DNA of 64,000 nucleotides, taken from assembly GCF_026967925.1 (NCBI RefSeq), contig NZ_JAPVBI010000001.1:744001-808000 (forward strand), written 5' to 3'. Below the pieces are notes generated by a model, which was not told the origin of the DNA, did not search any database, and saw only the letters and a program-made list of their open reading frames with translations. The translations under genes and the position numbers were made by a program. Source of the stretch: Modestobacter sp. VKM Ac-2985 (GTDB lineage: Bacteria > Actinomycetota > Actinomycetes > Mycobacteriales > Geodermatophilaceae). This document shows positions 12,858 to 43,503 of the stretch, piece by piece. Position 1 is the stretch's first letter; every line of letters starts with the position of its first letter.

Positions 12858-13091
12858 CGAACGGGAGGTCTCGTCTCACCCCTGTGCGTGTCAAGGGGGT
12901 GTTCCTGTCGGTGTGAGGGCATAGCGTCGGCGGTGGAGGACGAGCTCACCTCGCCCTCCGCGGGAGGCCCGGTTGGTGCGACGCAGTTCGTTCACCAGAG
13001 GGGCCGTGTCCCGGCCCCTGCGCCGGGACCCGGTCACCTTCGAGCCGGGGCGCGCCTTGACACCAGGGTGTCGCTCCACGGGAGCCGATTC
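12858..13091. other. Non-coding gap ahead of phoH-like gene
   Basis: This 234-nt stretch shows no credible gene. It contains a short stem GACACC-AG-GGTGTC close to the phoH-like start, and a run GTGTCAAG followed about 25 nt later by CATAGCGT that could be a promoter. Nothing stronger is visible. Confidence 0.4.
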
Positions 13092-14387
13092 GTGAGCACT
13101 CGCCGTACCTACGTCCTCGACACCTCCGTGCTCCTCTCCGACCCGGGGGCGCTGCTGCGCTTCGACGAGCACGACGTCGTCGTCCCGCTGGTGGTGATCG
13201 GTGAGCTCGAGGACAAGCGTGACCACCCCGAGCTCGGCTGGTTCGCCCGGCAGACCCTGCGGATGCTCGACGACCTCCGGGTGCAGCACGGCCGGCTGGA
13301 CGCACCGCTGCCGGTCGGCGTGCAGGGCGGTTCCCTGCACGTGGAGCTGAACCACAGCGATCCGTCGGTGCTCCCGCCCGGCTTCCGGAACGACAGCAAC
13401 GACAGCCGGATCATGGTCGTCGCGCTCAACCTGCGCAGCGAGGGCCGGGACGTCTGCCTCGTCACCAAGGACGTGCCGCTGCGGGTCAAGGCCGCCGCGG
13501 TGGGGCTGGACACCGAGGAGTACCGCGGGCTGGGCGCGGTCGACACCGGCTGGACCGGGATGACCGAGCTCGCGGTGGAGGAGCCCGACGTCCAGGCGCT
13601 GTACGACGCCGGCACGGTCTTCCTGCCTGCCGCCGCGGAGCTGCCCACGCACACCGGGCTGGTGCTGCTCTCCGGCCGGGGGTCCGCGCTGGGCCGGGTG
13701 ACCCCGGACAAGCAGGTGCGGCTGGTCCGCGGCGACCGGGACGCCTTCGGCCTGCACGGGCGCTCCGCCGAGCAGCGGATCGCCCTCGACCTGCTGCTCG
13801 ACCCCGAGATCGGCATCGTCTCGATGGGCGGCCGGGCCGGCACCGGCAAGTCGGCGCTGGCGCTGTGCGCCGGGCTCGAGTCGGTGATGGAGCGGCGGGC
13901 GCACAAGAAGGTCGTGATCTTCCGGCCGCTGTACGCCGTCGGCGGGCAGGAGCTCGGCTACCTGCCGGGCAGCGAGGGCGAGAAGATGGCGCCCTGGGCA
14001 CAGGCGGTGTTCGACACGCTGGGTGCCCTGGTCTCCGGTGACGTCGTCGAGGAGATCGTGGCCCGCGGGCTGATCGAGGTGCTGCCGCTGACCCACATCC
14101 GCGGCCGCTCGCTGCACGACTCGTTCGTGATAGTCGACGAGGCGCAGTCGCTGGAGCGCGGGGTGCTGCTCACCGTGCTCTCCCGGCTGGGCACCAACTC
14201 CCGCGTCGTCCTCACCCACGACGTCGCGCAGCGGGACAACCTCCGGGTCGGCCGGCACGACGGCGTCACCGCGGTGATCGACCGCCTGAAGGGCCACCCG
14301 CTGTTCGCCCACGTGACCCTGACCCGCTCCGAGCGCTCCCCGATCGCCGCCCTGGTGACCGAGATGCTGGAAGACCTCCCCCTCTGA
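13092..14387 (+). CDS. PIN-PhoH fusion (PhoH2-type) ATPase
   Basis: A 431-residue two-domain protein. The N-terminal PIN nuclease domain starts '[12 protein letters not shown]' with the catalytic Asp and continues with '[16 protein letters not shown]' and '[12 protein letters not shown]'. The C-terminal PhoH ATPase has Walker [11 protein letters not shown] (about residue 245) and Walker B '[12 protein letters not shown]'. PIN-PhoH proteins (PhoH2 of mycobacteria) unwind and cut RNA. The GTG at 13092 begins just before the PIN beta strand; a GTG eight codons upstream at 13068 is an alternative. Transcription converges on the DUF559 gene. Confidence 0.9.
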
Positions 14388-14433: not shown

Positions 14434-14511
14434 CCCCGCATTGCACGCCGTTCGTCTGGATCGCACGTGCTGCAGCACGTGCATCGTGACCACAACGCGT
14501 GCAATGCGGGG
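14434..14511. repeat. Nested palindrome, 3' side of DUF559 gene
   Basis: A 15-bp perfect inverted repeat (14434-14448 with 14497-14511) encloses a separate 20-bp perfect palindrome (14463-14482, core CTGCAG). With one bulged base the outer arm extends to a TGCACGCGTT-like end. The structure ends one base before the DUF559 stop codon and lies between convergent genes, so it could serve as a two-way terminator. Its outer arm shares the TGCACGCGTT / AACGCGTGCA core with the hairpin at 15524-15593. Confidence 0.75.
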
Positions 14512-14512
14512 T

Positions 14513-15439
14513 TCAGCGGGTGGCGCGGGTCAGGGCGCGGAGCCACCTGGACACCAGGGCATCGGGTGTGGCCAGGTCGTCCCACACCCAGCGCACGACG
14601 GTCCAACCCTCGTCTCGGAGAGCGTCCTCCCGTCGCTTCTCCTCGAACACGGCGTCCCCGGCGTCCTGCCCGGGCCGGAGCAGTCGCCCGTACTTGACCC
14701 GCCCGTCGAACTCACCGAGCAGTCGCTCGTGCTGCCAACCGAAGTCGGTGCGTCCGACCAGCCGCCCGTCGGGCCGTCGCACATCGACCTGGAGGTCGGG
14801 GAGAGGCAGTCCGGCGTCGATCATCAACGCTCGTGAGCGGCTCTCGCCCACGCTCTCGGACCGGGCGTCGGCGGCGAGCAGGACCCGACGCGCGGATCGG
14901 GTGCCCGGTGTCCCGGCACAGGCGTGCAGCACTGTCATCAGTTCGGCGGGCGTGGTCATCCGTTGCGCCAGCGCCGCATCGGCGACCACGAGCGCCGCTG
15001 CGAACGGGACGGTGCGGGCCACGTCGACGACCGTCCGCGCGACGCTGGTGACCGCGATCCCGCCGTGCAGCACGACGTCGTCCTCGCCGAGCCGGGCGAC
15101 GTGCGACCTCAGCCGGTTCTCGTCCGCGCTGCGTGCTGGAGGCCGGCGGGTGACGTGCACCTGTCGCAACGCCAGCCCCCACAGCGGCAGACCGTGCAGC
15201 GCCGCTGCAGATCCGTGGCTGACGACGGCCGGCTGGCGCAGGCCGGCGAGGGTGGCCCGGACCGCCAGCAGGTGCCTGGCACGTTGGGGCAGCGCGGTCG
15301 GGGCCACCAGGTAGGCGCCGCGCTGCAAGGTGGACCACTGGCCTCGGCGGCGCCGCCGCCTGATCTCGTCGTCGACGAGCCCGGCGGCGAGGGCCTGTGG
15401 TCGCAGGACGAGGCGGGGGAGCGGGTCGGCCGGTTCCAT
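14513..15439 (-). CDS. DUF559 endonuclease-like protein with N-terminal AbiEi-type region
   Basis: A 308-residue actinobacterial protein of the type often annotated as type IV toxin-antitoxin AbiEi antitoxin or DUF559 endonuclease. The N-terminal half contains a winged-helix-like region (QRGAYLVAPTALPQRA, then SHGSAAALHGLPLWG). The C-terminal half resembles the Vsr/DUF559 PD-(D/E)xK fold: GRTDFGW with the Asp, LLGEFDGRVKYG with Glu/Asp, and a final RWVWDDL strand. The ATG at 15439 is chosen by domain start; no strong ribosome site is visible. No toxin partner lies beside it. Related hairpins bracket the gene on both sides. Confidence 0.75.
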   Translation of the reverse strand: MEPADPLPRLVLRPQALAAGLVDDEIRRRRRRGQWSTLQRGAYLVAPTALPQRARHLLAVRATLAGLRQPAVVSHGSAAALHGLPLWGLALRQVHVTRRPPARSADENRLRSHVARLGEDDVVLHGGIAVTSVARTVVDVARTVPFAAALVVADAALAQRMTTPAELMTVLHACAGTPGTRSARRVLLAADARSESVGESRSRALMIDAGLPLPDLQVDVRRPDGRLVGRTDFGWQHERLLGEFDGRVKYGRLLRPGQDAGDAVFEEKRREDALRDEGWTVVRWVWDDLATPDALVSRWLRALTRATR

Positions 15440-15523
15440 GACCACACCGTGCTGGGTGGCGACGCCCCGATGCCCGCCTCTCGACGATCTGGGGACGCGG
15501 CCCACCGCTGTGGACGGTGCGCA

Positions 15524-15593
15524 GCTCTGCACGCGTTCTGCACGGTCTGCTCGCGCTGCGGCACGAGCAAAGTGCACGAAACGCGTGCAGAGC
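15524..15593. repeat. Hairpin on 5' side of DUF559 gene, related to 14434-14511
   Basis: A 14-bp perfect inverted repeat (15524-15537 with 15580-15593) encloses smaller stems: TGCAC/GTGCA (15539-15543 with 15572-15576) and TGCTCG/CGAGCA (15548-15553 with 15564-15569). Arms carry the TGCACGCGTT / AACGCGTGCA core seen in the hairpin at the other end of the DUF559 gene. It also lies just after the last gene of the flagellar operon, so a terminator function is an alternative. Confidence 0.75.
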
Positions 15594-15611: not shown

Positions 15612-15845
15612 TCAGGTCGGGGTGGCGGGCTGGTCTTCCGGTGCCGTGCGGCTCGGTCGGGTCGGGGGCGGTGGGGTGGTGGCCCAGCGGAGCAGGCCGA
15701 CCGCGACCCAGGCCGCGCCCAGGCACCACAGCAGGCGGACGGTGACGTCGTCGAGGGAGAAGTCACCGCGCAGTCCCAGCAGGAACACCGGGATGGCCAG
15801 CACGAAGCCGGTCACCACGACGTCCCTGCGGAACGGGCTGATCAC
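15612..15845 (-). CDS. Small two-helix membrane protein ending the flagellar operon
   Basis: A 77-residue protein whose GTG overlaps the stop of the FlhF-like gene (GTGA). It has two hydrophobic helices (about residues 9-26 and 34-54), then a Pro/Thr-rich tail. No family is recognised. Its position after fliM-to-flhF suggests a role in, or passenger transcription with, the flagellar export apparatus. The hairpin at 15524-15593 follows the stop. Confidence 0.65.
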   Translation of the reverse strand: MISPFRRDVVVTGFVLAIPVFLLGLRGDFSLDDVTVRLLWCLGAAWVAVGLLRWATTPPPPTRPSRTAPEDQPATPT

Positions 15846-18787
15846 GCCTCCATCTCCTCCAGCCGCTCACACAGCAGCGAGGCCCAGCGGTGCGCGGTGG
15901 CCCGGGTGCCGTCGACCATGGCCACGGGCACCGGGACGTGGTCCAGCACGGCGGCCGGGTCAGCGGTCGAGTCGGTGTCCTCGACGACGACGGCGTCCAG
16001 GCGGGGCAGGCCGTCCAGCCACGGCACGAGGTCCTCGGGCTTGCGGGTGGCCTCCATGACCGCCCACACCGCCGTCGGCGACCAGACGGAGAGCATGTGC
16101 TCCATCCACGGCCCACCGGACGTGCGCAGCGGGGCGTCCACGGCGACGACCGTGACCGCGCCGGTCGTCGCGCTCGTCCGGCGGCGTGCCAGGGCGGTCT
16201 CCACCGAGGTGATCCGGCTGGCCTCCGGGGCCAGGCCGGCCAGCGCACCGGAGGCGGCCCACAGGACGGCCTCGGGCTCCAGCCGCAGCGAGGAGGCCAG
16301 TGACCGGGCGGCGGCGAACGTCTCGGCGCCGGGGCCGACGAGCATCAGCACGTCGCCGGGCTCCGTCGGCGCCGGCGGAGCCGAGGGGAGGCGCTCGGAC
16401 AGGGTGCGGGTCAGCGCGGCGTAGACCCCGCGGGCGGCCGCGTCGCTGGTGAAGTCCGGCCCCAGCAGGGAGTCGGGCAGCCCGAGGGTGAGCAGCCGGA
16501 TGACCAGCTCCTCGGGCCCGCTCATCGGGTAGGGGACGAGCGCCGTGGACGACGGTGCGGGGACCAGCCGGGTCACGGTCGCCAGGCGGCCGCCGGGCTC
16601 GTCGGCGGCCGGCAGCGCAGGGGCAGCCGGCCGGGGTGCCACGGGGAGGGCCGTCGGGCGGGTCGGGGCCTGCGGGCGGCCGGACAGTGCGGGTCGGGTG
16701 CTCGCCGGCACCGGCGGGCGCGACCGGCGGACCGGCGGGACACCGGGACGGGAGGCCAGCAGCGGCTGCGAACCGCCGAAGTGCTGCGGCGGCATCAGCG
16801 ACAGCGGCGGCAGGACGGTGGTGGCGTCCAGCGGCAACGGAGCCGGGTCGCTCGCGGTCCGCGCCATCTCCGGGGCCATCGCGGGGGCCATCGCCGGGGA
16901 CACGACCGGGGACATGACCGGGGAGAGGGCCACCGGGACGGCGAACCGCTCGCGCTGGTCGATCGACGGTGACTCCATGAAGCGGATCTCCTCGGCCGGG
17001 GACTCGTCGACGACGACGGCGTCCACGACCAGGTTCTGGGCGGCGGCGAACTGCGCCGCCCGCTGGGCGATCCGGTCCTCGCTGGCGTAGCCGGCGTGCG
17101 CGTCGGTCCGGTAGGCGCTGGTGTCGTAGGCGTTGGGCTCGGCGCCGGTGGTCTGGTAGGCCCACGGCTGCGGGACGTCGCGCACCCGGTCCTCGGCGAG
17201 CGCCGGGGCGGGCCACGCGCGGGCGGCCGCGGACTCGATGATCGCCGAGGCAGCCGCGACGGCCGCGTCCCCGTCCTGGTCGGCCTCTGCGGCGGTCCGC
17301 TCGGCACCCGCCTCGGGGGAGCGGTGCCGGCCGCGGCCGGAGCCGTTGGCGGCCAGGACCTCCTCGAGCAGGTCGGCCAGCTCCTCGTCCGCACTCCGCA
17401 CGGACTCGACCATCGAGAGGGCCGGGGCCGCCGTCTCGAGGCGGGTGGCCTCGATTCGTGCGGCTTCGATCCGGGCGGCCTCGGCGGCCTCGGCCTGGAC
17501 CCGAGCGGCCTCTGCCCGGGTGCGGGCTGCTTCGATCCGGGCTGCTTCGACGCGCACTGCCTCAGCCGCGGCGGCCTCGGCCTCGGCCTGGTGGCGGGCT
17601 GCCTCGGCGGCTGCTTCGGCCTCGGCCTGGTGGCGGGCTGCCTCGGCGGCTGCTGCGGTCTCGGCCTGGTGGCGGGCTGCTTCGGCGGCTGCTTCGGTCT
17701 CGGCCTGGTGGCGGGCTGCTTCGGCGGCTGCTTCGGTCTCGGCCTGGTGGCGGGCTGCTTCGGCGGCTGCTTCGGTCTCGGCCTGGAGGCGGGCTGCGTC
17801 TGCGGCTGCTTCGGTCTCGGCCTGGAGGCGGGCTGCGTCTGCGGCTGCTTCGGTCACGGCCTGGAGGCGAGCTGCCTCGGCCTGGAGGCGGGCTGCGTCG
17901 GCGGCTGCTTCGGCCTCGGCCTGGAGGCGAGCCGCCTCGATCCGTGCTGCCTCGGCCCGTGCTGCCTCGGCCTGCACCCGGGCGGCCCCGGCGGCAGCCG
18001 CCTCGATGCGCGCGGTGGCCAGCCGGGTGGCCTCCGCGGCCGCGGCCTCGACCGCAGCCGTCTGGGCAGCGGCTGCCTCGGCCGCGGCCAGCTCGGCAGC
18101 GGCCGCCACAGCGGCGTCTTCGACCGCGGCGTCGGCTGCCGCCTGCACCGGGCTGGAGGCGACCATCCGGGTCAGCGCTGCGGCGAAGGGGGAGGGCCCC
18201 GACGGCTCGTCGGCGACCGGTGCGGGCGCCGGCGTCGGCACGAGGTCCTCCGCCGAGAGCATCAGGGTGTGCTTGGCGGGGGTGAACGGCTTGGCCGCCA
18301 CCGGGGCGGCCGCAGCCGCGGCTGCCCGTGCCGGTCGCGCTGCGGACCGGGCGCCGTCGGCGGGACCGGTCGCGCGCCCGGCAGCGGTGCGCCCGGCCGG
18401 CGCGGCGGCTGCGGGCGTGCCGGCCGGGGTCCGCACCGAGCCGGACCGGCCGTAGAGGTCCACGTCCGGGCTGCCCTGCGCGGCCGCACCCAGCAGGTCG
18501 GCGAGCTCCTTCATCCGGTCGTCCATCGACGGCCCGGCAGCGGCGGTCGGCCGCGCAGGCGTGGCGGGGTCCTTCAGCACGGTCGAGGAACCGGTGCTCG
18601 GCCCGGGGGTCGCCCCGGCCGCGGGCACCTCGACCTCGGCGATGAACCGTTCGTTGGTGAAGAAGCCGAACATGCCGCCGGAGCGGATGCGGCGGACCCC
18701 GACCACCCGGGCCGAGGCCCCGAACTCTGCGCGTGCGGCCGCGACGGCCTCGTCACGCGTGGCTGCCTCAACGGATCGCGACGGCAC
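15842..18787 (-). CDS. FlhF-like protein with degenerate GTPase core and Ala-rich repeat region
   Basis: A 981-residue protein in the usual flhF position after flhA. The N-terminal ~50 residues match FlhF ('AATRDEAVAAARAEFGASA', then a basic VRRIRSGG stretch). Residues ~200-460 are an Ala/Glu/Arg coiled-coil-like region with 13-residue tandem repeats (AEAARHQAETEAA type). The last ~260 residues align in layout with the SRP-type GTPase, but the P-loop is lost: VGPGAETFAAA replaces a GPTGVGKTT-type motif, and DAPLRTSG stands where DTAGR is expected. FlhF sets flagellar number and site as a GTP-dependent dimer; this form probably cannot bind GTP. The GTG start overlaps flhA by 20 nt. Confidence 0.7.
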   Translation of the reverse strand: MPSRSVEAATRDEAVAAARAEFGASARVVGVRRIRSGGMFGFFTNERFIAEVEVPAAGATPGPSTGSSTVLKDPATPARPTAAAGPSMDDRMKELADLLGAAAQGSPDVDLYGRSGSVRTPAGTPAAAAPAGRTAAGRATGPADGARSAARPARAAAAAAAPVAAKPFTPAKHTLMLSAEDLVPTPAPAPVADEPSGPSPFAAALTRMVASSPVQAAADAAVEDAAVAAAAELAAAEAAAAQTAAVEAAAAEATRLATARIEAAAAGAARVQAEAARAEAARIEAARLQAEAEAAADAARLQAEAARLQAVTEAAADAARLQAETEAAADAARLQAETEAAAEAARHQAETEAAAEAARHQAETEAAAEAARHQAETAAAAEAARHQAEAEAAAEAARHQAEAEAAAAEAVRVEAARIEAARTRAEAARVQAEAAEAARIEAARIEATRLETAAPALSMVESVRSADEELADLLEEVLAANGSGRGRHRSPEAGAERTAAEADQDGDAAVAAASAIIESAAARAWPAPALAEDRVRDVPQPWAYQTTGAEPNAYDTSAYRTDAHAGYASEDRIAQRAAQFAAAQNLVVDAVVVDESPAEEIRFMESPSIDQRERFAVPVALSPVMSPVVSPAMAPAMAPEMARTASDPAPLPLDATTVLPPLSLMPPQHFGGSQPLLASRPGVPPVRRSRPPVPASTRPALSGRPQAPTRPTALPVAPRPAAPALPAADEPGGRLATVTRLVPAPSSTALVPYPMSGPEELVIRLLTLGLPDSLLGPDFTSDAAARGVYAALTRTLSERLPSAPPAPTEPGDVLMLVGPGAETFAAARSLASSLRLEPEAVLWAASGALAGLAPEASRITSVETALARRRTSATTGAVTVVAVDAPLRTSGGPWMEHMLSVWSPTAVWAVMEATRKPEDLVPWLDGLPRLDAVVVEDTDSTADPAAVLDHVPVPVAMVDGTRATAHRWASLLCERLEEMEA
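17575..17920 (-). repeat. 39-nt tandem repeats inside the FlhF-like gene
   Basis: About eight to nine in-frame copies of a 39-nt unit, each coding 13 residues (A-E/D-A-A-R-H/L-Q-A-E-T/A-E-A-A). The four central copies are almost identical in DNA and step by exactly 39 nt. In-frame repeats can change copy number by slippage or recombination without breaking the gene. Confidence 0.85.
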
Positions 18788-39829: not shown

Positions 39830-39869
39830 ACTTGCACCCGATCGGGCGCGTCCAGTCACACAACGCACA

Positions 39870-39911
39870 CGTCCCCCGCGACAGAAATGGCCATTTCTGT
39901 CGCGGGGGACG
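39870..39911. repeat. 42-bp perfect palindrome between fliT-like gene and flgB
   Basis: The two 21-bp halves are exact reverse complements with no spacer; the centre is AAATGGCCATTT and the arms are GTCCCCCGCGACAG-type. It begins 26 nt after the fliT-like stop and 41 nt upstream of the flgB promoter. As RNA it would form a strong hairpin (possible terminator for fliD-S-T); as DNA it could extrude a cruciform or bind a dimer. The AT-rich core in GC-rich DNA is striking. Confidence 0.85.
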
Positions 39912-39937
39912 GGGGAGTGCCGGTGGTGCGGGTGGGG

Positions 39938-42225: not shown

Positions 42226-43503
42226 TCAGCCCAGCAGCTTCAGGATGCCCTGCGGAGCCTGGTTGGCCTGGGCCAGCATCGCGGTGCCGGCCTGGGTCAG
42301 GATCTGCGTACGGGTGAAGTTCGTCATCTCCTGGGCCATGTCGGTGTCGCGGATCCGGCTCTCGGACGCCGACAGGTTCTCGACGGCGACGTTGAGGTTG
42401 TTGATGGTGTGCTCGAACCGGTTCTGGATGGCACCCAGGTCGGCGCGAGTGGTGGAGACCGACTTGATCGCGGCATCGATGGCGTCGATGGCGTCGGTGG
42501 CGCCGCTGCCGGCCGTGAAGGTCGGGGTGGCGTCGTTGATCTGGGCGGCGGTGCCACCCAGGGCGAACCCGCCGGCACCGGTGTAGCCGGTGACGGCCTC
42601 GTTGACCTGGAAGGTCAGGTCACCGGCGGCGGCGGTGAACGGGCCGGTGGCGCTGGTCAGCCCGAGGGCTGCCTTGGCCGCGGTGTTCAGGGCCGCGAGG
42701 GCCTCGACGTCGCTGACGGCGCCGTCGCCACCGCTGTCGGCCTTGGCCACGGAGTAGTCGACCGTGTTCAGGTCGAAGCTCTTGCCGGCGAAGCTGATCG
42801 TGCCGGACAGGTTCTCGTAGGCCGCCGAGCTGCCGCTGGCGGCCTGGAAGTCCGCCTCACCGGTCGCCTTGGTGAACACCATGTCGGAGTTCGCCGCGGT
42901 GGTCGCGTTGGTGGTGGTCACGCCACCGGCGGTGCCCGAGGTGGCGTTGGTGGTGTAGGCGCCGGCCTTGGTGACGTCGACGCCGGCGACGTCGAGACCC
43001 TTCTGCCCCATCGCGGTGCCGATGGTGACGGCGATCGTCTCGCCGGAGTTCGCGCCCACCTGGAAGGTGGTGGCGTACTTGCCGTCGAGCAGCTTCTTGC
43101 CGTTGAACGTCGTGGTGTCGGCGATGCGGTCCAGCTCGGACTTGAGCTGGCCGATCTCGGACTGGATGTTCTTCTTGGCGTCGGCGTTCAGCGAGCCCTC
43201 GTTGGAGGCCTGCACCGACAGGTCGCGCATGCGCTGGAGGATCTTGTGCGTCTCGGTGAGCGCACCTTCAGCGGTCTGCACGACCGAGATGCCGTCCTGG
43301 GTGTTGCGGACGGCGACCTTGAGGCCACCGATCTGCGAGCGGAGGCCCTCGGAGATGGCCAGGCCCGCCGCGTCGTCGGCGGCGCGGTTGATGCGGAAGC
43401 CGGAGGAGAGCTTCTCCAGCGACTTGCTCATCTGGTTGTCGGTGACCGACAGGTTGCGGTACGAGTTCATCGCCGCGATGTTGTTGTTGACGCTCAGACC
43501 CAT
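42226..43503 (-). CDS. fliC: Flagellin 1
   Basis: A 425-residue filament subunit. N-terminal D0/D1 ('NNNIAAMNSYRNLSVTDNQMSKSLEKLSSGFRINRAADDAAGL' in parts) and C-terminal D1/D0 ('FEHTINNLNVAVENLSASESRIRDTDMAQEM', ending ILKLLG) are canonical. The middle, residues ~170-330, is Ala/Thr/Gly-rich surface domain. It is almost identical to flagellin 2, with ten differences. A strong ribosome site (AAGGAGGAAC) precedes the ATG. The Ser/Thr-rich exposed domain could be a glycosylation target. Confidence 0.96.
   Translation of the reverse strand: MGLSVNNNIAAMNSYRNLSVTDNQMSKSLEKLSSGFRINRAADDAAGLAISEGLRSQIGGLKVAVRNTQDGISVVQTAEGALTETHKILQRMRDLSVQASNEGSLNADAKKNIQSEIGQLKSELDRIADTTTFNGKKLLDGKYATTFQVGANSGETIAVTIGTAMGQKGLDVAGVDVTKAGAYTTNATSGTAGGVTTTNATTAANSDMVFTKATGEADFQAASGSSAAYENLSGTISFAGKSFDLNTVDYSVAKADSGGDGAVSDVEALAALNTAAKAALGLTSATGPFTAAAGDLTFQVNEAVTGYTGAGGFALGGTAAQINDATPTFTAGSGATDAIDAIDAAIKSVSTTRADLGAIQNRFEHTINNLNVAVENLSASESRIRDTDMAQEMTNFTRTQILTQAGTAMLAQANQAPQGILKLLG

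Follow-up and report, generated by a model that had tools for sequence, protein, structure and literature searches.

A predicted AbiEi-Vsr-type nuclease gene bordered by copies of its own dispersed palindrome in Modestobacter: a probable REPtron-like pair

The window, by which we mean the whole 64,000-nucleotide stretch of Modestobacter DNA analysed here, harbors a stand-alone, intergenic, predicted nuclease gene that has a complete palindromic element on each side and that does not interrupt a target of its own, whether as an intron, an intein or an insertion in a split site. The features of this locus are as follows.

12888-14387: PhoH-type gene, convergent with the nuclease gene and adjoining it on one side
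14434-14511: 3' hairpin of 78 nt, with the 70-nt element core at 14438-14507 and an inner palindrome at 14463-14482
14513-15439, minus strand: nuclease gene, an open frame of 308 aa with its ATG at 15437-15439 and its stop codon at 14513-14515 (TCA)
14516-14854, minus strand: predicted Vsr / I-Bth0305I-like nuclease domain, residues 196-308, from structure and profile matches
14864-15436, minus strand: predicted AbiEi-like DNA-binding part, residues 2-192, from structure matches and PADLOC AbiEi
15508-15515, minus strand: GTCCACAG, a DnaA-box-like motif between the start codon and the 5' hairpin
15524-15593: 5' hairpin, carrying the 70-nt element of the 3' hairpin once more
15612-15845: 77-aa ORF on the other side of the nuclease gene, overlapping the end of the flhF-like gene
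15842-18787, minus strand: flhF-like gene of 981 aa, located upstream of flhA

Orthologues of the nuclease are found in many genomes, at identities of 54-91%. The flhF-like gene is named from its start and its position beside flhA and not from Pfam, which gave no match for either this gene or the 77-aa ORF. Its 981-aa product contains a long, repetitive Ala-rich insert made of ETEAAAEAARHQA.. units.

The hairpin at 14434-14511 is composed of perfect 15-bp outer arms, CCCCGCATTGCACGC / GCGTGCAATGCGGGG, around a perfect inner palindrome of 20 bp, GCACGTGCTGCAGCACGTGC, and ends a single base (14512) short of the stop codon. The hairpin at 15524-15593 has perfect 14-bp outer arms, and the ATG begins 84 bp further on. 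The original prediction had given these coordinates, the inner palindrome and its distance from the stop codon correctly. As single-stranded DNA the two hairpins fold at -33.2 and -28.7 kcal/mol (z -7.7 and -5.7, respectively), in both cases better than 200/200 dinucleotide shuffles. By a crude stem score, both are ordinary in this GC-rich window, where they rank 8 and 15 and score close to the best stems of random sequence, and the 10-mer core TGCACGCGTT is not enriched in the genome, with 14 sites compared to 15 for its reversed control. The case therefore rests on comparison. An Rfam search gave weak, chance-level matches and nothing more. The arm sequence that the hairpins had been predicted to share is part of a larger identity: both are copies of one 70-nt element, of which a covariance model finds independent, full-length copies in the genome with E-values down to 4e-16. 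The hairpins are considered to lie beyond chance because they represent a single element, because this element has independent genome copies, and because matched hairpins surround most related genes, as described below.

In the element of the window, referred to here as the TGCACG type, the 70-nt alignment is without internal gaps and TGCACG is found at positions 5-10 and 25-30, mirrored in the opposite arm. Each element carries four copies of a motif of about 10 bp, two in each arm at a distance of 20 bp (two helical turns), with the arms mirroring each other, and the copies retrieved by the covariance model are nearly all exactly 70 bases long. When 101 hairpins were searched for the repeat of a 10-mer within an arm, a lag of 20 bp was found in 52 and any other lag in 7 at most. 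The spacers of the TGCACG family co-vary such that symmetry is kept (covariation 0.219 versus 0.138 when shuffled, 0/500), and the same applies to a second palindrome family (0.218 versus 0.163, 0/500). A GTAG or CGTC tag is absent from the aligned elements and from the surroundings of 40 dispersed solo copies.

The motif GTCCACAG resembles the actinobacterial DnaA box, TTGTCCACA (PMC4285127), and is a putative DnaA site. Its placement is directional: it falls in the 200 bp ahead of the start in 74/80 orthologues and in the 200 bp following the match in 1/80, with a background of 0.03 per 200 bp, and it also precedes most divergent paralogues, in some of them inverted. One paralogue with perfect matched hairpins (L055) has three tandem DnaA-box-like sites, CGTCCACAGG, TGTCCACAGG and TGTCCACAGG, at 20-bp spacing and about 144-184 bp ahead of the called gene start. 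In the flanks of three further paralogues (L322, L330 and L332), a tandem double short perfect palindrome, such as GGGCCATGTTCGCGAACATGGCCC twice, replaces the single long hairpin.

The comparison of flanks encompassed 80 named orthologous loci from Modestobacter, Geodermatophilus, Blastococcus, Goekera, Trujillonella, Nakamurella, Pseudonocardia, Rhodococcus, Prescottella, Aldersonia, Antrihabitans and Skermania; an alignment of highly diverse paralogues proved too divergent for use in the contig scan, and orthologues were taken instead. The typical layout is a hairpin 60-150 bp ahead of the start and another at the stop codon. The upstream flank of each locus was compared with its own downstream flank by local alignment, with a threshold of 32, the maximum of control stretches. 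The median score was 53.5 for own pairs versus 21 for mismatched pairs, in which the downstream flank came from another locus. Own pairs exceeded the threshold in 60/80 loci, though the sequence varies by lineage, and the flanks did not match each other by this measure in 20/80. The best match of an upstream flank was its own downstream flank in 34/80 loci, where about 1 is expected. Among 44 further loci, mostly divergent paralogues of many subfamilies in this and related genomes, 36 scored above 32, as against 77/1892 mismatched pairs, and the flanking palindromes are family-specific (GGCATAGGAAGCT.., GAGTGAGCAGTTGTGGTCG.., GATCATGGAGCTGGCG.., GGCAGAAATGGCCATTTCTGCC and others). Among 60 called genes of the window, used as a control, flank similarity was 32 or less in all except one; this exception (42226-43503) scored 153 and is probably a tandem gene duplication rather than a case of hairpins. 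The original prediction held that it would fail if other DUF559-type genes lacked such flanks; most of the genes tested have them.

These matched flanks also bear on the view that the hairpins are mere transcription terminators that resemble each other by chance. They are strong, GC-rich stems at gene ends, mainly between convergent genes, and the original prediction had remarked that both sites lie where terminators would be useful. However, an intrinsic terminator scan of the hairpins gave no match and no T-tract, the upstream copy precedes a start codon, and at one site a separate terminator-like stem is found besides the element. Shared sequence is unnecessary for termination, yet left and right copies match and families differ. 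Because the sequences on the two sides are matched and family-specific, which a terminator role does not explain, we regard this view as very improbable, although the hairpins may also terminate transcription.

The palindrome is not confined to the gene. When this genome is searched with a covariance model trained on copies that flank the genes, 11 sites are obtained, namely the two flanks and nine solos. A related nuclease gene is absent within 2 kb of all 40 solo sites retrieved from seven genomes. The original prediction took hairpins without the gene as a refutation; they do occur literally, yet dispersed solos are what a REP-like system predicts. Solos are found mainly at convergent gene ends, a position occupied by 22 of 31 context-resolved solos versus 10 of 61 gene pairs of the window (Fisher p 4e-7), and REPs are likewise located at convergent 3' ends (PMC3733652). 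A second family (L012 type), CAGAAATGGCCATTTCTG, occurs as an exact match 28 times in this genome and 24 times in genome G008, and its reversed control yields none. Two of the G008 copies bracket the nuclease paralogue gene, the orthologues of which in other species are bracketed by different palindromes. One of the 28 copies is a solo in the window, with CAGAAATGGCCATTTCTG at 39882-39899 in a stem at 39863-39918.

The type of palindrome tracks the nuclease allele rather than the host. Genomes G013 and G021 have a PhoH protein 97-98% identical to that of this genome, yet in the nuclease the identity is 54-56% and they carry hairpins of the CTCTTGCG type. By PhoH, G014 lies further away (94%), yet its nuclease is 76% identical and its hairpins are of the TGCACG type. 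With phylogeny ignored, element counts are higher in the presence of the cognate gene (TGCACG, p 0.001; CTCTTGCG, p 0.014) and the share of TGCACG versus CTCTTGCG elements follows the allele (p 0.004). The relation of counts to gene presence is imperfect, in that G020 and G006 have many TGCACG solos with no cognate-type gene seen, and G009 has strong CTCTTGCG solos alongside the other nuclease allele. A clean double dissociation between the two palindrome types and the two alleles was not obtained, and the association is statistical because old solos persist. We hold the pairing of gene and palindrome itself to be virtually certain.

The AlphaFold model of the window protein (pLDDT 88.5, pTM 0.84) has two parts, from which an AbiEi-like DNA-binding domain followed by a Vsr/I-Bth0305I-like nuclease is predicted. 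In structure comparisons, residues 2-192 match the AbiEi antitoxin 6y8q (Z 12.3, rmsd 6.0 over 177) and Rv2827c of M. tuberculosis (1zel; Z 10.3). PADLOC assigns the protein to AbiEi (E 3e-17), and the sole Pfam match is a weak one to AbiEi_4, at 19.9 bits for a cut-off of 25. Residues 196-308 match the homing endonuclease I-Bth0305I (3r3p; Z 12.9, rmsd 2.2 over 96) and Vsr (1cw0; Z 10.3), both of which are also retrieved by a sequence profile of the nuclease family, with D232 aligned to the Asp of the Vsr RPDF segment. The acidic residues E199, D232 and E243, which belong to the predicted active site, do not vary among 13 divergent relatives or 16 orthologues, and K249 occupies a position that is His in many relatives. 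The DUF559 nuclease-like label of the original prediction is borne out in part: the modelled fold is Vsr-like and 8 of 13 aligned relatives match DUF559, but Pfam finds no DUF559 in the window protein itself. NCBIfam and PHROGs searches gave nothing useful. A HuH Y1 transposase of the IS200/IS605 kind was considered and rejected, as both parts of the chain are explained by the AbiEi and Vsr folds and a His-x-His motif is absent from the sequence.

Such a protein could also be an autoregulated AbiEi-type regulator, for which the palindromes serve as operators, as in the abiE promoter, while the nuclease domain is put to some other use, such as defence. AbiEi binds inverted repeats in its own promoter and represses it through them (PMC3985639), one palindrome is always found ahead of the gene, and the PADLOC match fits. 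Nonetheless, a second full copy is present at the stop codon, solos lie mainly at convergent gene ends and not at promoters, and one palindrome family reaches tens of copies per genome. The AbiEii nucleotidyltransferase toxin was likewise not found among the adjacent genes checked (the PhoH-type gene, the 77-aa ORF, the flhF-like gene, flhA and ABC transporter genes). We consider a regulator of this kind improbable.

Orthologous sites differ in what they hold. At one solo site (L187), where the upstream gene is up to 99% identical, the TGCACG element is found in five genomes, the family element of another paralogue (L010 type) in four, still different hairpins in others and nothing in several; it is in this comparison that a separate terminator-like stem was seen to coexist with the element. 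At a second site (L195), where the queried flank is 94-96% identical among close relatives, the 70-mer is present in G004, G013, G018 and G021 and absent from this genome and G008, and the element of a third family (L011 type) is found in G002. At the phoH site, G006, G007 and G020 hold a gene of a different subfamily with its own hairpins, G005 has both hairpins around an internally deleted gene, G010 has one hairpin of the same type as those of G005, solos of other types are found in G003 and G017, and a terminator-like stem alone in G016. This G016 stem (L064), which follows the phoH stop, is CCCCGCCGTCCAGCTGGACGGCGGGG, and the site also has a GGTCAGGAGGTG-type repeat in three copies. Filled and empty sites, when compared, showed no constant target-site duplication or junction, and one solo (L182) was discarded as an empty-site case as its surroundings are too rearranged to define one. 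The pattern of presence and absence can be explained in part by gene loss. For the mobile unit originally proposed, the variable presence of solos at orthologous sites and the full, deleted and solo states at one site are indirect evidence.

The same sites might be ascribed to selfish homing, in which the nuclease cuts an unoccupied solo and repair inserts the whole hairpin-gene-hairpin unit, such that solos are empty targets or leftovers. The predicted C-terminal domain is nearest to that of a homing endonuclease, related genomes have, at the phoH site, the unit with its gene, the unit with the gene deleted and a solo, all of one type, and a unit of an unrelated subfamily sits at this very site. 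However, the window-type gene remains at the phoH site within the genus and is not found within 2 kb of the 40 solos, and a complete element is present at both flanks with no split target. Homing in this form appears unlikely.

We favor the interpretation that the AbiEi-Vsr-type gene and its dispersed palindrome family probably constitute a REPtron-like pair in which the enzyme is not a RAYT. Specific recognition of the palindrome by the nuclease protein is likely, and dispersal of the palindrome by the nuclease is rather more likely than otherwise. The AbiEi-like N-terminal part would read the motif of about 10 bp, and the Vsr/I-Bth0305I-like C-terminal domain would cut or nick there. Repair of the break could then copy the element to new sites, mainly the 3' ends of genes, where insertion would do little harm, and recombination between two flanking copies would delete the gene and leave a solo behind. 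We know of no direct precedent for such transfer in the Vsr-like nuclease class. Homing of the whole gene, an operator role and plain termination each cover some of the observations, and operator and terminator functions may be additional to dispersal. The system looks like an independently evolved counterpart of REP/RAYT with an unrelated enzyme. Whether it represents a second palindrome-dispersing class, with AbiEi-Vsr fusions each recognising and spreading a private palindrome family, a dozen or so pairs per actinobacterial genome, and a DnaA-type box possibly tying expression to replication, we judge to be evenly balanced.

The pairing of an enzyme with dispersed palindromes is known from REP elements and RAYT, for which the mode of spread is still an open question (PMC8266576). 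If the interpretation is true, an unrelated enzyme that behaves alike in the genome, with many parallel pairs in each, would permit movement, retention and specificity change to be tested by comparison. It would also explain many intergenic palindromes of high-GC Gram-positive genomes that are so far unaccounted for, proposing an origin for the dispersed palindromes of actinobacteria and a role for a common family so far named only as a domain of unknown function. Moreover, it would provide a large natural collection of nuclease/target pairs for working out recognition. No earlier description of an AbiEi-Vsr/palindrome system was found in a literature that excludes preprints and most subscription journals, and a search for DUF559 in connection with palindromes or hairpins gave unrelated papers only. 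The Vsr-type MTES_1575 nuclease domain has been described, with AbiEi unmentioned there (PMC3710099).

Three known systems share parts of this arrangement. The AbiEi antitoxin and Rv2827c, of type IV toxin-antitoxin systems, have the N-terminal fold in common with the modelled window protein (Z 12.3 and 10.3), but here there is an extra predicted nuclease domain, the palindromes flank the gene on either side and are also spread across the genome, and the adjacent genes checked include no toxin. I-Bth0305I and Vsr have the C-terminal nuclease fold in common with it (Z 12.9 and 10.3), whereas the window protein has a predicted AbiEi-like fusion and K249 in place of the His of many relatives, and its gene has complete flanking palindromes and no intron or intein. 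The REP/RAYT analogy of the original prediction extends to genomic behaviour and not to the enzyme. As in REPtrons, which pair REP/BIME elements with TnpAREP (RAYT), the gene is bordered by cognate palindromes, intergenic copies are dispersed close to the 3' ends of convergent genes, the enzyme varies together with the palindrome, and the gene is mostly a fixed single copy (PMC8266576, PMC3733652). In contrast, the HuH enzyme of REPtrons is replaced here by a predicted AbiEi-like part with a PD-(D/E)XK Vsr-like nuclease, the GTAG/CGTC tag by an untagged element of about 70 nt with two motif copies per arm, and each genome harbors several independent gene/palindrome pairs at lower copy number.
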